From Candidatus Didemnitutus sp. (lineage in GTDB: Bacteria; Verrucomicrobiota; Verrucomicrobiia; Opitutales; Opitutaceae), in NCBI GenBank assembly GCA_017991595.1, contig JAGOQJ010000001.1, forward strand, positions 186,001-250,000: 64,000 bases of DNA, read 5' to 3'. The notes below the pieces were generated by a model that ran no database searches, was not told the DNA's origin, and saw only the letters and a list, made by a program, of their open reading frames with translations. Shown here one piece after another: positions 3,245 through 31,562 of the stretch. The number at the start of each line of letters is the position of its first letter. Position 1 is the first letter of the stretch. The translations under genes and the position numbers were made by a program.

Positions 3245-4948
3245 TCAGTAGCCGGCGGCGGCGTTGGTGCGGCGCGGGTCGGCCCAGCCGCGCTTCACGC
3301 CGCCGGGGAGGAACTCGATGGCGTTGACGCCGCCGAAATGCTCCGGGTCGTCCTCGATGCGCGGATTCCAGCCGAGCTGCCGCAGCGCCTCCGCCGTGGG
3401 CACGGGGAGGGAATACTCGAACTCGAGCTTGTTGCGGGCGTCGTCGGCGGAAGCGGGGCGCACGACGTGGAAGCGCGTGTCGCCGATCGCCTCGCCCACG
3501 GAGCGGTTGAACGCGAGGTAATCCAACAGCACCTGCAGCACGCCGATCGGGATGCGTTGTCCGCCGGGCACGCCGACGGCGAGGACGGGCTCGCCGCCGC
3601 GCAGCACGAGTGTCGGCGACGTGGTGCTGCGGCCGCGGCGTCCGGGCGCCACGTAGTTGGGCGACTTGCGGTCGCCGTAAGTGAGGGAGTTCATCCAGTT
3701 GTTCAGCACCACGCCGGTGCCGTGCGCGACGATGCCGGATCCGAAATGATAGCCGGTGGACTGCGTGATGCAGGCGATGTTGCCTTCCGCGTCAGCCACG
3801 GCGAAGTGCGTCGTGGAACTGGCCTGGCCCTCGTCCTCCATCGCGGTGGAGACGTGCACCAGCGGGCGTCCGGGCGTGGTGAGCGCGCTGCGCAGGAGCG
3901 TGGTCGTCTCGGGTCCGGTGAGGCGGCGGTAACGTTCCCAAGTGTCGGGCACGTCGCCGATTTCGGCCTGCACGAGCGGGTAGAGGCGTTGCACGACGCG
4001 GGCCACGCGATCGAGGTTGCGCGGGTCGCGGAGCGTCTCGCCGGGCCAGGTCGCGCCTTCGAGTGCCTGCATGGCGAGCTGGAGCATCGTGCCGCCGCTG
4101 AAGGGTGGAGGACTGGTGAAGATCTCTGCGTCGCCCCACGTGAAGCGCGCGGCCTCGGAAAACTCCGAACGATAGTGCGCGAGGTCCTCGAGCGTCATCG
4201 TGCCGCCTCCGGCGCGGACGGAGGCGACGATCGCCTCCGCCACCGGTCCGCGGTAAAAACCTTCCGGACCCTTTTGCGCGAAGAGTTCCAGCGTGGCGGC
4301 GAGATCGGGGTTCGCCAGGCGCGTGCCGGCAACGGGCAGTTTGCCGCGAGGGAGGTAGAGCCGGCCGATCTCGGCGAAACGCCGGAGCTTCTTCTCCTGA
4401 CTTTGGAAGAATTTGACCGAGAGCGGCAGCACGAGGAAGCCCTCGCGCGCGAGCTTGATGGCGGGCCGGGCGTTGTCGGCCCACGGCAGCCGGCCCCAAC
4501 GCCGGTGCGCATCATGCAGCGCGGCGGGCAACCCGGGCACGCAGACCGCGGTGGCGCCGATGGAGCGGCCCGCGCTGGGGAGCTTGCGGTAGGCGTCGAC
4601 GTCGAGTGCGCGGCTCACCGACTCGACGCCGTGCACGACCGAGACGCGCTTCGTCGCGGCCTCGTAATAGACGATGACGATGCGCCCGCCGAGGCCCGAG
4701 CCGTAGGGCTCCGCCACGCCGAGCGCCAGCGATACGGCGACGGCGGCATCCATCGCCGAGCCGCCCGCGCGCAGCATCTGCACGCCGGCCTCGGTCGCTT
4801 CCGGATGTCCGGCGACGACCATGCCGTGCGGCGCATCGACGGGCTCCAGCCGGTGCGTGGCCGAGGCGTGGAGCGCGACCGGCAGCGCGGTGGAGCAAAT
4901 GACAACGCCGGCAAGGGCGACGCGGGGCAGGGCGGCAAGAAGGCTCAT
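3245..4948 (-). CDS. ggt: Gamma-glutamyltransferase (glutathione hydrolase)
   Basis: Transfers or hydrolyses the gamma-glutamyl group of glutathione and related peptides, normally in the periplasm. The 567-residue precursor starts with a hydrophobic signal sequence (MSLLAALPRVALAG). SSTTHFAVADAEGN contains the autoprocessing nucleophile, the first Thr of TTH (residue 379). This predicts a 378-residue large and a 189-residue small subunit, the usual proportions. The substrate-pocket SSMSPT of E. coli Ggt is STTSPT here, and PGGS is PGGQ, so acceptor preference may differ. An upstream in-frame start at 5026 is rejected because a sigma54 promoter lies at 4985-5000, inside such an extension. The gene lies 101 nt downstream of the sigma54 activator gene on the same strand, which suggests control by that regulator. 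Confidence 0.93.
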   Translation of the reverse strand: MSLLAALPRVALAGVVICSTALPVALHASATHRLEPVDAPHGMVVAGHPEATEAGVQMLRAGGSAMDAAVAVSLALGVAEPYGSGLGGRIVIVYYEAATKRVSVVHGVESVSRALDVDAYRKLPSAGRSIGATAVCVPGLPAALHDAHRRWGRLPWADNARPAIKLAREGFLVLPLSVKFFQSQEKKLRRFAEIGRLYLPRGKLPVAGTRLANPDLAATLELFAQKGPEGFYRGPVAEAIVASVRAGGGTMTLEDLAHYRSEFSEAARFTWGDAEIFTSPPPFSGGTMLQLAMQALEGATWPGETLRDPRNLDRVARVVQRLYPLVQAEIGDVPDTWERYRRLTGPETTTLLRSALTTPGRPLVHVSTAMEDEGQASSTTHFAVADAEGNIACITQSTGYHFGSGIVAHGTGVVLNNWMNSLTYGDRKSPNYVAPGRRGRSTTSPTLVLRGGEPVLAVGVPGGQRIPIGVLQVLLDYLAFNRSVGEAIGDTRFHVVRPASADDARNKLEFEYSLPVPTAEALRQLGWNPRIEDDPEHFGGVNAIEFLPGGVKRGWADPRRTNAAAGY

Positions 4949-27002: not shown

Positions 27003-30000
27003 TCAGGGGCCGACGATTTTCTGGCGGAGGTGCGTGTGGCGGAACTTCGACTCGGCGTTGCGGACGGCCATCGAGTAGGCGGCGGGCTCGCCGACGAGGA
27101 AGACCTTCTTCTTGCCGCGCGTGATGGCGGTGTAGACGAGGTTGCGCTGGAGCATCATGAAGTGCGCCTTGAGCAGCGGCACGATGACGACAGGATACTC
27201 GCTGCCCTGCGACTTGTGGATGCTGATGGCGTAGGCGAGCGCGACGTCACCGAACTCGCCGCGCTCGAAGACGTGCGACTCGCCGTCGAAATCGGCGATC
27301 AGCGTGCCCTTGGTGAGGTCGGTGCTGACGACGCGGCCGATGTCGCCGTTGAAGAGGCCCTTGTCGTAGTTGTTGCGGAGCTGGATGAGCTTGTCGCCGG
27401 GGCGATACTCGCCGCTGACGGCGCGCAGGCCCTTCTGGTGGGGGTTGAGTGCGGCCTGGAGGCGGGTGTTGAGGTTGCCGACGCCGACCGTGCCCTTGTG
27501 CATCGGGGCGAGCACCTGCACGTCGGTGATGGGGTTGAACCACTTGAAATGCGCCGGGATGAAGTGCGTGCAGAGCTCGACGATCTTGGCGAGGCAGTCC
27601 TCGGCGTCGGTTGCGGCGATGAAGTTGAGATCGCTCCACGTCTGCGCCTTGCCGACCTCGCCGAGCACGGGTGGCGGCTGGGCGACGCCTTCGTTGATGG
27701 CGTGCGCGGTGGTGACGATGGAGCTCTCCTTGCCCTGGCGATAGACGAAGGAGAGGCGGGTCACCGGCAAGGCCGGTGCCTCGGCGGGTGATGGGCGATG
27801 GGCAATGGGAGATGGGGTGGGGCCGCTCGCAACTAGCTCACTACTGACGGCGATGAGGTCCTTCAACACGTTGCCGGCGCCGACGCTGGGGAGCTGGTCG
27901 ATGTCGCCGACGAGGAGCAGGTGCGCGCGGGCGGGCACGGCTTGCAACAGCGCGGCGGCGAGGCGGGTGTCGAGCATCGAGGCTTCGTCGACGATGAGGA
28001 AGTCGGTGGCGAGCGGGTGCGCCTCGTTCACCGTGAAGGCGCCGCGCTCGAACTTGAGCAGGCGGTGGATGGTGGAGGCGAAGCCGCCGGTGGTGCCCGC
28101 GAGGCGCTGGGCGGCGCGGCCGGTGGGGGCGGCGAGCGTGACGCGGACTTTCTTGGCCTTCAGGATGTCGACGAGCGCGCGGAGGATCGTGGTGTTGTGG
28201 GTGACGATGTAGTCGTCGGTGACATAGAGCCCGGATTTCGATTCGAGGCTGATGCACACGCATTCCTGCGGGCCCAGCGGCGTGACAGAGGCGATCCGCA
28301 GGCGGAGCGACAGGCGCCGCCGGGCGTGCGGACGCTCCGTCCTTTGCCGTTTGCGCGAGAGGTGGAACAGCGTGGCCGGTTCCGGGTGCTGTAGAAAGAC
28401 CGTGTAGGCGTCGAGCCCCGCCCGGCGTTCGCCCCGGTGGGTGAAATGCGGTCGCTTCACTGCGCCGAGGGTGGCGATGGCGCCGAGGGACCAGGCCAGC
28501 CGCTGCACGTCCCGGGCGAGTTGAAACGAGGAGGTCGTGAAGGAGACCACGCCGAGGTGGTCCACGGTGCCGTCGGTGTCGAGGAGGCCGCGCAGCAGTT
28601 CGAGTCGTTGCTCAAGGGACGCCTCGAACAAGGAAGGCGGGATGAACTTGGCCTCCGAATTAACATTCAGCCCCCAGCCGACGATCGCATCGCGCAAGGG
28701 GTTGGCGTGACCTTTGCCGCGGGCGACCAACCGGTGCGTGAGCGTCGGCTTGCCGTGAAGCGTGACCGGTTTGAGGCGGATGCCCAAGGGAGCAAGCAGC
28801 CCGGCCACGTGGTCCAGCAATTCTGCGTCGGCCGAAGTCAGCAACACGGCCTCCTTGAGCCCGCCGTCTCCGATGAGTGCGCCCAGAACATACGGGGGCA
28901 TGGCGATCGGCAGATCCGTGCCTTCGGGACGCGGCTGCAGCAAAGGCACGGCCATGCGCTCGCTCTCGGTGCGATCATCCGCGAGGCGTTGTTGCACGTA
29001 GCTCAGCGGGACCACGCGCCAGCCGCGGGAGCGAATCTTCTTCTTTTTGCCCGGATGCCAGACGGAGGTGCGGGTCCACAGTTTCCAGAGGTGGTCGGCA
29101 CAGCATTCGCAGGAACGCCCGTCGGCGAAGGTGACACGGAACGTCGGCTTCACACCCTGCGGATGGATGCTGCGCACACGCACGACATCGCCCTCCGCGC
29201 CGACCACAAGGTCGCCGGGACGGAGGTCGCCGATGGCACGAAACCCTTCCGGCGTGAGCACCCGGGCGTGCAACGGCTGCGCTTTGCCGGTTCCCGGTCC
29301 GCCGGTGAGGATGGAGAACTTGTGCGTGAGGGCGTTTTTGATCGCGCTGGATTGGAGCGGGTGGAACGCGAAGCCGGCCTTGTCCTGCGCCCATTGCACG
29401 GCGGCGTCGACCTTGATGGCCGGGAGGCCGCTCGGCACGGCGGTGAGGCGGCGGACAGTGTCGGCGATTTTCTGTTCGGCGCGGGTGTTGAGCGGGAGCT
29501 GGATGGCCGCCGCGTTGCGCGCGGCGAGCTGAGCGCTGTGCTCTGAGGGCTCAGCGCCAGAAGGGCCGTGGGCGACGATGGCTTTTTGCGCGATGAGTGC
29601 GTCGATGCGGGCCTCGACGCGTTCGGCGGAGGTCTCGAGGAGTGTGGCGGTGTAGGTGACGAGCTCCTCGCGCGGGTAGGCCGTGTGGCCTTCCTCCTGC
29701 AGGGTCTCGAGCGCGTAGATGAGGCCGGCGTCGAGGCGGGGCGGGGCGTCGTTGGCGTAGCCGAGGTTGATGGCGATGCGGTCGGCGGTCTTGAAGCCGA
29801 TGCCGTCGATCTCGCGCGCCATGCGATAGGGCTCGTGGGTGATGATCTGTTTCGCCTCGGGGCCGAACTGGTTGACGATCTTCACGCACTGCGAGGTCGT
29901 GACGCCGTAGGTCTGAAGGTAAATGTGCACCTCGCGCAGCGTGCGTTGCTCCTCCCACGCGGCCTTGATGGCGCCGGCGCGGACCTTGCCGATGCCGGGG

Positions 30001-30425
30001 ACCTTGCGGAGCTTGCCGGACTCCTCGCTGAGCACGCGGAAGGTGTCCACGCCGAACGCGTCGACGATCTTGTTGGCGTAGACCTTGCCGATGCCGGGGA
30101 CGAGGCCGGAGCCGAGGTATTTGCGGATGCCGTAAACGGAGGAAGGCAGCTCGCTCTTGTAGCCGGTGATCTTGAACTGCGCGCCGTGCTGCGCGTGCTT
30201 GGTCCACTCGCCGGTGAGCTGGAGCGTCTCGCCGCATTGCACGCCGGGCAGCGGACCGACGATGGTGACGAGCGACTTGCCCTCGGCGGGCGGGGCGGAG
30301 GCCGGATCGTCCGCGGCCTTGGCGTTCTCGGGGCGCAGCTCCGCGATGGTGTAGTGGTTCTCCTCGTTGAAAAAAATGATGCGTTCGAGGACGCCGGTGA
30401 GGGAGTTGGGAGAGGGCGCGGCCAA
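27003..30425 (-). CDS. recD2: RecD2-type SF1B helicase interrupted by an intein
   Basis: A 1140-residue precursor; without the intein the mature helicase would be 777 residues, normal for RecD2. The N-terminal half has OB/HhH elements (VPGIGKVYANKIVDAFG, VPGIGKVRAGAIKAAW, IDGIGFKTADRIA). Walker A is GGPGTGK | TT, broken after Lys381 by the intein and resuming at Thr745. Downstream are motif II VDEASMLD, GDIDQLPSVGAGN, and the C-terminal AYAISIHKSQGSEYP and YTAITRGKKKVFLVG. It is a 5'-3' DNA helicase of repair or recombination, separate from RecBCD. The start is TTG at 30425, the only in-frame candidate after the TAA ahead of LTGVLERIIFFNEENHY. A loop of about 30 residues with short tandem repeats lies after motif III. 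Activity depends on protein splicing. Confidence 0.93.
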   Translation of the reverse strand: MAAPSPNSLTGVLERIIFFNEENHYTIAELRPENAKAADDPASAPPAEGKSLVTIVGPLPGVQCGETLQLTGEWTKHAQHGAQFKITGYKSELPSSVYGIRKYLGSGLVPGIGKVYANKIVDAFGVDTFRVLSEESGKLRKVPGIGKVRAGAIKAAWEEQRTLREVHIYLQTYGVTTSQCVKIVNQFGPEAKQIITHEPYRMAREIDGIGFKTADRIAINLGYANDAPPRLDAGLIYALETLQEEGHTAYPREELVTYTATLLETSAERVEARIDALIAQKAIVAHGPSGAEPSEHSAQLAARNAAAIQLPLNTRAEQKIADTVRRLTAVPSGLPAIKVDAAVQWAQDKAGFAFHPLQSSAIKNALTHKFSILTGGPGTGKAQPLHARVLTPEGFRAIGDLRPGDLVVGAEGDVVRVRSIHPQGVKPTFRVTFADGRSCECCADHLWKLWTRTSVWHPGKKKKIRSRGWRVVPLSYVQQRLADDRTESERMAVPLLQPRPEGTDLPIAMPPYVLGALIGDGGLKEAVLLTSADAELLDHVAGLLAPLGIRLKPVTLHGKPTLTHRLVARGKGHANPLRDAIVGWGLNVNSEAKFIPPSLFEASLEQRLELLRGLLDTDGTVDHLGVVSFTTSSFQLARDVQRLAWSLGAIATLGAVKRPHFTHRGERRAGLDAYTVFLQHPEPATLFHLSRKRQRTERPHARRRLSLRLRIASVTPLGPQECVCISLESKSGLYVTDDYIVTHNTTILRALVDILKAKKVRVTLAAPTGRAAQRLAGTTGGFASTIHRLLKFERGAFTVNEAHPLATDFLIVDEASMLDTRLAAALLQAVPARAHLLLVGDIDQLPSVGAGNVLKDLIAVSSELVASGPTPSPIAHRPSPAEAPALPVTRLSFVYRQGKESSIVTTAHAINEGVAQPPPVLGEVGKAQTWSDLNFIAATDAEDCLAKIVELCTHFIPAHFKWFNPITDVQVLAPMHKGTVGVGNLNTRLQAALNPHQKGLRAVSGEYRPGDKLIQLRNNYDKGLFNGDIGRVVSTDLTKGTLIADFDGESHVFERGEFGDVALAYAISIHKSQGSEYPVVIVPLLKAHFMMLQRNLVYTAITRGKKKVFLVGEPAAYSMAVRNAESKFRHTHLRQKIVGP
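27789..27816. repeat. Four-copy 7-nt tandem repeat inside recD2
   Basis: ATGGG recurs at 27791, 27798, 27805 and 27812, a strict 7-nt period. On the coding (minus) strand it yields SPIAHRPSP within an in-frame loop between the GDIDQLPS motif and TRLSFVYRQ. RecD2 proteins usually have a much shorter linker there. Confidence 0.7.
28194..29282 (-). other. Class 3 intein with LAGLIDADG endonuclease in the RecD2 P-loop
   Basis: 363 residues (382-744 of the precursor) beginning AQPLHARVLTPEG and ending VTDDYIVTHN before Thr+1. Residue 1 is Ala, which cannot be the usual first nucleophile. The class 3 WCT signature is present: block B HLW (His64, Trp66), block F VCISL (Cys343), and Thr361 directly before the terminal His362-Asn363. 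LAGLIDADG blocks are LGALIGDGG (about 133-141) and LLRGLLDTDGTV (about 229-240), so the homing endonuclease looks intact. The block B position normally held by Thr appears to be Cys (CADH). Insertion after the P-loop Lys removes ATPase function until splicing. The boundaries are exact because removing the segment restores GPGTGKTT. Confidence 0.92.
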
Positions 30426-30569: not shown

Positions 30570-31022
30570 ATGGAATCGCTCTCGTTGCTGCTGCCGATCA
30601 TCCAGCTCGCCATCACGCCCGTGATCCTCGTGTCGGGCATGGGCGCGTTGATGATCGTGCTGACGAATCGCATGGGCCGCATCGTGGATCGCACGCGGCT
30701 CCTGGCGGAGAAGATCCCGGCGATGGAGGGGGACGAGCGCCGGCACCTGGAGGATCAGCTGGAGATCATGTGGCACCGCTCACTGCTGATCCGTCGCGCG
30801 GTGACGATGAACGGCCTGAGCATGTTGCTCTCGTGCCTGATGATCGTGGCGCTGTTTTGCGGCGCGATGCTGGAATGGGAAATGCGCGGCGTGGTCGTGA
30901 CACTTTTCGGCGGGAGCCTCCTGATGCTCATCGGCTCGCTGGTGGTGTTCCTGCGCGACATCTTCTACGCCCTGCGCGCACTGCGGTTGCAGATCGACCG
31001 GGCGAAGACCCTGCACCGTTGA
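30570..31022 (+). CDS. DUF2721 membrane protein
   Basis: A 150-residue integral membrane protein with hydrophobic segments near residues 7-30, 75-100 and 105-130. Family pattern: PVILVSGMGALMIVLTNRMGRIVDRTR near the N-terminus (signature LTNRxxRxxDR) and FLRDIFYALRALRLQ near the C-terminus. DUF2721 proteins have no established function. A paralogue lies 84 nt downstream on the same strand. It is divergent from recD2 (144-nt gap). The ATG at 30570 begins the conserved region; a long upstream extension of the frame is antisense to recD2 and rejected. Confidence 0.88.
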   Translation: MESLSLLLPIIQLAITPVILVSGMGALMIVLTNRMGRIVDRTRLLAEKIPAMEGDERRHLEDQLEIMWHRSLLIRRAVTMNGLSMLLSCLMIVALFCGAMLEWEMRGVVVTLFGGSLLMLIGSLVVFLRDIFYALRALRLQIDRAKTLHR

Positions 31023-31106: not shown

Positions 31107-31562
31107 ATGAATCCCAGCACGAGCGCGACCTTGCTCCAGATCATCCAGGCGGCGATCACGCCGGTCATCCTCATCTCGGGCACAGGCATGCTGCTGCTCA
31201 CGCTGACAAACCGCATGGGCCGGGCCGTCGACCGCACGCGCGCGCTGGCCGGGCAGTTGCGCGGCTCCAAAGGCAGCGATGTCCGGCACGTCGAAGGCCA
31301 GTTGACGATGTTGCATCTGCGCACGCGGCTCATCCGCTGGTCGGTCATCTACGCCGTGGTGAGCATGCTGATCGAATGCCTGCTGGTGCTCGCGATCTTC
31401 GTCTCCGGGCGGCTGCAACTGCAGGCGGAGGCCGTGCTGCTGGGGCTTTTCCTGACCAGCATCGTGCTGCTGGTAGGTTCGCTGGTTTACTTCCTGCGCG
31501 ACGTGGTGCTCTCGCTCGAGGCGCTGGACACCGAGGTGGCTTGGGCGCGCGAGGGGAAGTAG
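31107..31562 (+). CDS. DUF2721 membrane protein (paralogue)
   Basis: A 151-residue paralogue of the preceding gene. Both have a QxxITPVILxSGxGxLxxxLTNRMGRxVDRTR N-terminus, three hydrophobic segments, and a C-terminal FLRDVVLSLEALD. The two chains probably arose by tandem duplication and may form a hetero-oligomer in the inner membrane. Function unknown. Just downstream lies palindromic repeat copy 4. Confidence 0.88.
   Translation: MNPSTSATLLQIIQAAITPVILISGTGMLLLTLTNRMGRAVDRTRALAGQLRGSKGSDVRHVEGQLTMLHLRTRLIRWSVIYAVVSMLIECLLVLAIFVSGRLQLQAEAVLLGLFLTSIVLLVGSLVYFLRDVVLSLEALDTEVAWAREGK

Follow-up and report, generated by a model that had tools for sequence, protein, structure and literature searches.

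What is the insert that splits the ATP-binding P-loop of a recD2 gene in this stretch of Opitutaceae DNA (64,000 nucleotides, hereafter the window), could it still splice and move, and is such an element rare? We conclude, with a probability of about 0.88, that it is a complete class 3 intein which carries a LAGLIDADG homing endonuclease and splits the Walker A motif of RecD2 between its Lys and Thr, with splicing and mobility predicted from the sequence.

The recD2 gene and its insert

The 1140-aa product scores 748.3 bits with TIGR01448 (curated cut-off of 500) and contains the domains HHH_RecD2, OB_YrrC, SH3_13, AAA_19 and UvrD_C_2. Both the score above the cut-off and the presence of the N-terminal HHH/OB extension place it in RecD2. 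The frame is unbroken from a TTG start at 30425, which is aligned with the GTG start of the gene from another species of the same genus (G010). Translation of 28194-29282 on the minus strand yields 363 stop-free residues (AQPLHARVLTP...YIVTHN), with junctions GGPGTGK/AQPLH on the N side and VTHN/TTILRA on the C side (slashes mark the junctions), while the plus-strand reading was ruled out because it contains a stop. The original prediction had given exactly these coordinates, leaving the coding strand unstated, and had described a 363-residue insert between GPGTGK and TT of the Walker A motif, starting with Ala and ending in THN before Thr; the translation and both junctions agree with it in every respect.

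The G010 gene carries the same intein at the same junction (69% identity), and all 52 of the intein-less RecD2s examined run straight from one half into the other. In its own genome (2.88 Mb, 18 contigs, 87% complete) the intein has a single match. Beside the recD2 start, on the opposite strand, there are two adjacent DUF2721 genes (window 30594-31022 and 31107-31562, plus strand), probably tandem paralogues. The features of the locus are listed in Table 1.

Table 1. Coordinates of the recD2 gene, the intein and its predicted functional residues in the window
Feature	Position	Strand	Details
recD2 with intein	27003..30425	minus	1140-aa precursor, 777 aa expected after splicing; TIGR01448
N-extein	29283..30425	minus	381 aa, C-terminal end ILTGGPGTGK
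Class 3 intein	28194..29282	minus	363 aa
C-extein	27003..28193	minus	396 aa, from TTILRA to stop
Intein residue 1, Ala	29280..29282	minus	no N-terminal nucleophile; Ala in 94/105 readable relatives
Block B, C58-E-C-C-A-D-H64-L-W66	29085..29111	minus	catalytic His64, class 3 Trp66
LAGLIDADG homing endonuclease domain	28323..28937	minus	about residues 116-320, limits by eye; PF14528 and fold matches
Block C, first LAGLIDADG motif, YVLGALIGDG (131-140), Asp139	28860..28892	minus	Asp in 57/60
Block E, second LAGLIDADG motif, LLRGLLDTDGTV (229-240), Asp237	28563..28598	minus	Asp in 58/60
Cys343, block F position 4	28254..28256	minus	predicted first nucleophile; 60/60 aligned
Thr361-His362-Asn363, block G	28194..28202	minus	each in 60/60 aligned
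Thr+1	28191..28193	minus	second nucleophile and RecD2 Walker A Thr; Thr/Ser in 105/105 readable relatives

Splicing residues and class 3 signature

As defined in PMC5222942, class 3 inteins have Trp at B:12, Cys at F:4 and Thr at G:5 (WCT), are devoid of the residue-1 nucleophile and usually show Ser/Thr at +1. In the window intein there is no Cys, Ser or Thr at residue 1, the three WCT residues are in place, and it has in addition His at B:10 (His64), the penultimate His362, the terminal Asn363 and Thr at +1. We aligned 60 inteins, which were the one in the window, 49 of 80 genome loci and 10 of 29 viral loci, picked for spread. His64, Cys343, Thr361, His362 and Asn363 are invariant in this alignment, and Trp66 is kept in 59 of the 60. 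Residues A1, H64, W66, C343, T361, H362, N363 and D139 are found in all 17 Opitutaceae RecD2 inteins. The WCT signature and the alignment check that accompanied it in the original prediction are thus borne out, with Trp66, Cys343 and Thr361 falling in blocks B, F and G. The remark that the block B Thr seemed to be Cys was also right, as Cys replaces the Thr of TxxH at position 61. Across the aligned inteins Cys is the majority residue at this position (45, against 10 with Thr and 5 with Ser), and PMC7891396 reports no conserved residue there in class 3 inteins, so Cys61 is not a defect.

Following the route described in PMC5222942 and PMC7664689, Cys343 (F:4), assisted by His64 and Thr361, would attack the bond between Lys(-1) and Ala1, and the N-extein would be transferred to Thr+1; cyclisation of Asn363 and an O-N acyl shift would then leave an unbroken GPGTGKTT. 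The missing N-terminal nucleophile (Ala1) would also suit a class 2 route, with Thr+1 as the direct attacker of the N-terminal junction and Cys343 not serving as first nucleophile, since class 2 inteins likewise lack one (PMC5222942). We consider this very improbable, as the full WCT set is kept in 59 of the 60 aligned inteins and Cys F:4 was required by all three WCT mini-inteins tested in the same paper.

Since the insert sits in the P-loop, the unspliced precursor would have this loop broken and the helicase would presumably be unable to use ATP. It is plausible that splicing switches on the repair helicase, as the original prediction proposed. An alternative reading is a domesticated host switch, where oxidation of the Cys cluster 58/60/61 beside His64 would hold splicing and RecD2 would be freed only under suitable redox conditions. 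There is a precedent in Msm DnaBi1, likewise a class 3 intein in a P-loop, in which H2O2 pauses splicing by way of a disulfide between Cys48 and Cys118 (PMC6195587), and among the RecD2 inteins in the first 16 rows of our alignment Cys60 is present in 16 and Cys61 in 15. However, both cysteines are usual over all hosts (49/60 and 45/60), and so they are not a RecD2 adaptation, and no Cys occupies the position of Msm Cys48, judging by the distance from the block B His. The intein is, moreover, absent from close sister species, and its endonuclease is still under selection, as in a mobile element. We regard such domestication as unlikely.

Endonuclease domain, selection and predicted fold

Blocks C and E, both claimed from the first reading, are present with their acidic residues Asp139 and Asp237, and LAGLIDADG_3 (PF14528) matches with 48.7 bits (cut-off of 22.5). 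The predicted model has a two-domain fold, with matches to PI-SceI and I-DmoI, as expected for a LAGLIDADG endonuclease. This AlphaFold2 model, made from the 60-row alignment, reached a mean pLDDT of 92.8 and a pTM of 0.90. Its top Foldseek match was PI-SceI (1ef0_A, E 3.2e-19, TM-score 0.67), and further matches included inteins that also carry an endonuclease, the class 3 DnaB inteins 6rix and 6bs8 (E between 1.6e-5 and 6.1e-5) and, over the endonuclease part, I-DmoI. Comparison of the model with PDB structures indicates a HINT fold; in the Hint-domain search suggested earlier, Pfam Hint_2 stayed below its cut-off (20.2 vs 28.4). A sequence profile search of the PDB with the same alignment agrees with Foldseek in the kind of match. 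The gp41-1 entries 6riz (5.6e-19), an engineered form carrying WCT changes, and 6qaz (2.6e-15) ranked above 6rix and 6bs8 (4e-13), so that sequence similarity alone leaves the class unsettled.

Both the splicing and the endonuclease domains are under purifying selection. In 7 intein pairs (the five closest, hand-picked, and two with the window intein), dN/dS ranged from 0.08 to 0.28 in the splicing part and from 0.08 to 0.25 in the endonuclease part, Nei-Gojobori values that are rough because several dS exceed 1. Selection and distribution together suggest that the endonuclease is active at least in most copies. Asp237 is kept in 16 of the 17 Opitutaceae RecD2 inteins; it is replaced by Gly in the remaining one, L073 (4501-5589), and also in L079, from a Betaproteobacterium, both with intact splicing residues, a probable case of endonuclease decay as expected within a homing cycle. 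The least probable alternative is a decayed, non-splicing intein with RecD2 dead in this strain. The strain could perhaps do without RecD2, the completeness of the assembly is 87%, and one class 3 intein gene has been titled a pseudogene (PMC3196547); yet the frame here is open throughout, all the splicing residues checked are kept, and the exteins are under purifying selection (dN/dS of 0.125-0.41 in the tested intein-bearing pairs).

If active, the endonuclease would cut intein-less recD2 at the codons of the P-loop, with the intein-bearing allele serving as template for repair. The idea that the P-loop DNA is an unusually conserved target was not supported, since the insertion site is not among the best conserved parts of intein-less recD2 (924 of 2191 24-base stretches are at least as conserved). 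Codon positions 1 and 2 of this site are nearly fixed and the wobble positions are variable.

Distribution and probable horizontal movement in Opitutaceae

From 252 Opitutaceae genomes, 19 were matched and 17 contain the whole intein, spread across 10 of 49 genera; in three genomes (one among the 17) the match was the endonuclease part of another intein. RecD2 itself was found in 234 of the 252 (E up to 1e-60). All 17 RecD2 inteins have exactly 363 residues. Their presence is scattered among close relatives, like a shuffled label. On a RecD2 tree of 70 rows (17 from Opitutaceae and 1 from a Betaproteobacterium with the intein, 52 without it, these empty genes being our own choice and mostly from intein-holding genera), the label takes 16 changes, among which gain and loss are indistinguishable, vs a mean of 16.1 when shuffled, with 285 of 500 shuffles as low. 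Branches between some intein-bearing genes and their empty sisters are very short (for example L154 vs L229 and L230, or the window gene, 0.035, vs G003, 0.013).

Signs of horizontal intein movement, missed in the original prediction, run across the whole family. The tree of the 17 inteins is in conflict with the tree of their RecD2 exteins (AU p from 1e-5 to 2e-10, for groups chosen after the trees were seen). Neither the seven-species clade of RecD2 (p 2.7e-7) nor the pairing L072+L080 (1.3e-5) is compatible with the intein data, and the extein data in turn reject two intein clades, L072+L076+L077 (1.8e-10) and L068+L080 (6.2e-6). Between L074 and L075 the synonymous difference amounts to 6.0% for the intein and to 22.1% for the exteins (confidence interval of the difference from -0.206 to -0.115), and an intein so much closer than its exteins was probably moved or replaced after the species split. 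Part of the intein history is vertical, as its distances are correlated with those of the exteins (Mantel r of 0.60, none of 2000 permutations as high).

At synonymous sites, the inteins are further apart than the exteins in 131 of 136 pairs. We dropped this excess as proof of transfer because GC3 is lower in the intein than in the exteins in 16 of 17 cases (0.82 vs 0.92 in the window) and it may only reflect a weaker codon bias; only the L074/L075 pair, which goes in the opposite direction, was used. Co-conversion tracts beside the insertion were not detected, since the flanks have no excess divergence in intein-bearing/empty pairs (median near/far ratio of 1.23 in 85 such pairs vs 1.25 in 81 empty pairs). 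Between the window and the empty gene of G003 (L196), the third-position mismatch is 0.32 in the first 25 codons past the junction (28119-28193) and not above 0.04 in the next ten bins. Set against a third species, 28119-28193 is more divergent in the empty gene (0.52) than in the window (0.20), which suggests that this local peak is a change on the side of the empty gene.

Most probably, the insert in RecD2 is a homing intein of a known kind that is able to splice and moves horizontally, and the evidence of its movement within Opitutaceae is what this analysis adds to the earlier reading.

Insertion site and hosts of related inteins

Relatives were collected by intein sequence motifs and not by site, and TDDYIVTHN-like strings pick a subfamily. 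Junctions were read in 26 viral loci, near-copies included (29 loci in the viral scan, three partial ones, L033-L035, being omitted), and in the best 80 of 208 genome loci; L140 is masked at the junction, which leaves 105 readable loci. Among these, Lys always precedes the intein, and Thr (86) or Ser (19) always follows it. The preceding pair is GK in 104 and SK in 1, so the site is nearly always the GK/S or GK/T of Walker A, bearing in mind a bias of our script towards GK, as it took the last GK close to where the match begins for the N-junction; the C-junction is independent of this choice.

Family searches identified the hosts of several genome loci as RecD2 (L112), SNF2 (L091, L097, L105, L109, L129), ClpB-like AAA+ (L099), AAA_24 (L114), a UvrD/RecD-type helicase (L123) and another helicase (L118). 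The phage hosts identified in the same way are terminase (L008, L015, L017, L022), DnaB-like (L012), UvsX-like (L023), Dda-like (L032) and other helicases (L014, L024). No telling host family came out of this search for L081, L083, L096, L120, L128, L133 and L028. By the look of their motifs, we take the many GRPSMGK loci to be DnaB, L083 and L007 to be DUF927, L081 to be FtsK and L028 to be SMC, and some other host labels on the intein tree (L084, L092, L094, L103, L111) are assumptions of the same sort. L083 (a Cyanobium contig) and L007 (a viral contig) carry class 3 inteins that are tree neighbours and share the junction GGAGTGK/TTILK.

We also looked at 14 distant phage relatives, hand-picked from 40 spread rows of 477 matching records. 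Nine read as Lys followed by Ser or Thr at a P-loop-like GK, L235 has GK followed by Cys, and four (L236, L238, L239, L243) are inserted elsewhere, and universal use of Walker A by the relatives was therefore rejected. For 4 of the 14 the class is only putative, as the script picked up no block B HxW in the stretch examined. The Lys/Thr junction has already been called a "classic" P-loop insertion, and TerL inteins, some of them class 3, are reported at other sites (PMC5050341). Together with the phage relatives, these indicate that strict use of Walker A is a property of the sampled subfamily and not of class 3. A tentative reading, towards which we do not lean, is that one lineage of endonuclease-bearing class 3 inteins is a Walker A specialist, which would keep Lys/Ser or Lys/Thr while jumping among unrelated ATPases, with Opitutaceae RecD2 as an active front of frequent gain and loss between sisters. 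The universal P-loop would offer such a specialist a half-conserved DNA target, a splicing-compatible GK followed by S/T and no imprecise loss. If this were true, the ATPases jumped among would comprise RecD2, Dda-like, DnaB-like, UvsX-like, SNF2 and other helicases, ClpB-like AAA+ and terminases.

Origins and other inteins of the RecD2 family

A quickly built intein tree puts L079 in one clade with the RecD2 inteins of Opitutaceae (support of 99), beside DnaB and other inteins. Outside Opitutaceae, Walker A RecD2 inteins of the same kind occur in a Planctomycetota MAG (L112:2127-3161) and a Betaproteobacterium MAG (L079:4501-5574). L112 is placed elsewhere on the tree, with borderline significance (AU p of 0.039), which goes against a single origin of all RecD2 inteins and suggests at least two entries into RecD2. 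The inteins of the phage Dda-like helicase (L032) and of a Paracoccus RecD-like helicase (L123) form a clade of their own, and a direct jump from phage RecD to RecD2 is thus without support. A phage origin of class 3 inteins was proposed by Tori and Perler 2011, as cited in PMC5050341 and PMC7664689.

Besides the class 3 intein, the G010 RecD2 (L006 = L067) contains a second intein of 461 aa at approximately 3400-4782 (plus strand; SIHK/CVAAD...ISHN/SQG), which looks class 1-like (Cys1, Ser+1). Two LAGLIDADG_3 matches were found in a stretch that starts 23 codons upstream of this intein and stops 23 codons short. The second intein is also present in G262 (L161), whose Walker A is uninterrupted, and in G174 (L162), where Walker A lies outside the contig stretch.

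Comparison with known systems and significance

The chemistry of this intein is already known, and class 3 inteins with LAGLIDADG are common: 82.5% of the 1701 class 3 inteins counted in PMC7891396 have LAGLIDADG motifs. The original prediction called inteins of this chemistry in RecD2 P-loops uncommon, a view that does not hold given this abundance, the classic Lys/Thr site and the 17 intein-bearing genomes among 252 from Opitutaceae. No intein hosted by RecD2 was found in the open-access literature searched.

Msm DnaBi1 and Mch DnaB1 (PDB 6bs8 and 6rix; profile E of 4.7e-13 and 4.3e-13) share the HINT fold and WCT with the window intein, and Msm DnaBi1 is likewise inserted in a P-loop and starts with Ala1 (PMC6195587). 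In contrast to the window intein, with its LAGLIDADG motifs and RecD2 host, their chains have 139 and 145 residues and lie in a replicative helicase, and Msm DnaBi1 is stated to be without an endonuclease. The mycobacteriophage TerL1-a has the same Lys/Thr P-loop junction (TerL inteins being of class 1 and class 3), and BAKA TerL1-b and Bethlehem TerL1-c are reported to cut intein-less alleles; however, the host of TerL inteins is a phage packaging ATPase, and TerL1-c and -e, grouped with class 3, are at other sites (PMC5050341). The phage Dda-like (L005 = L032) and Paracoccus RecD-like (L123) inteins are alike in their SF1 RecD-family host, Walker A site and WCT, but they belong to a separate clade of the intein tree, and L032 has 36-38% identity to the window intein. 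PI-SceI, the VMA1 intein, is the best fold match spanning both domains, although it has 18% identity to the window intein, class 1 chemistry and a yeast V-ATPase host.

The RecD2 of Opitutaceae constitutes a natural panel, with 17 intein-bearing and many intein-less alleles within one family, some in near-identical sister genes, and a few of its recD2 genes hold an additional intein at a different helicase motif. Such a panel would let the rate of gain and loss of a class 3 homing intein be measured directly, and it would show whether the endonuclease tolerates wobble changes in the P-loop codons and whether a repair helicase is regulated through an intein in its P-loop.
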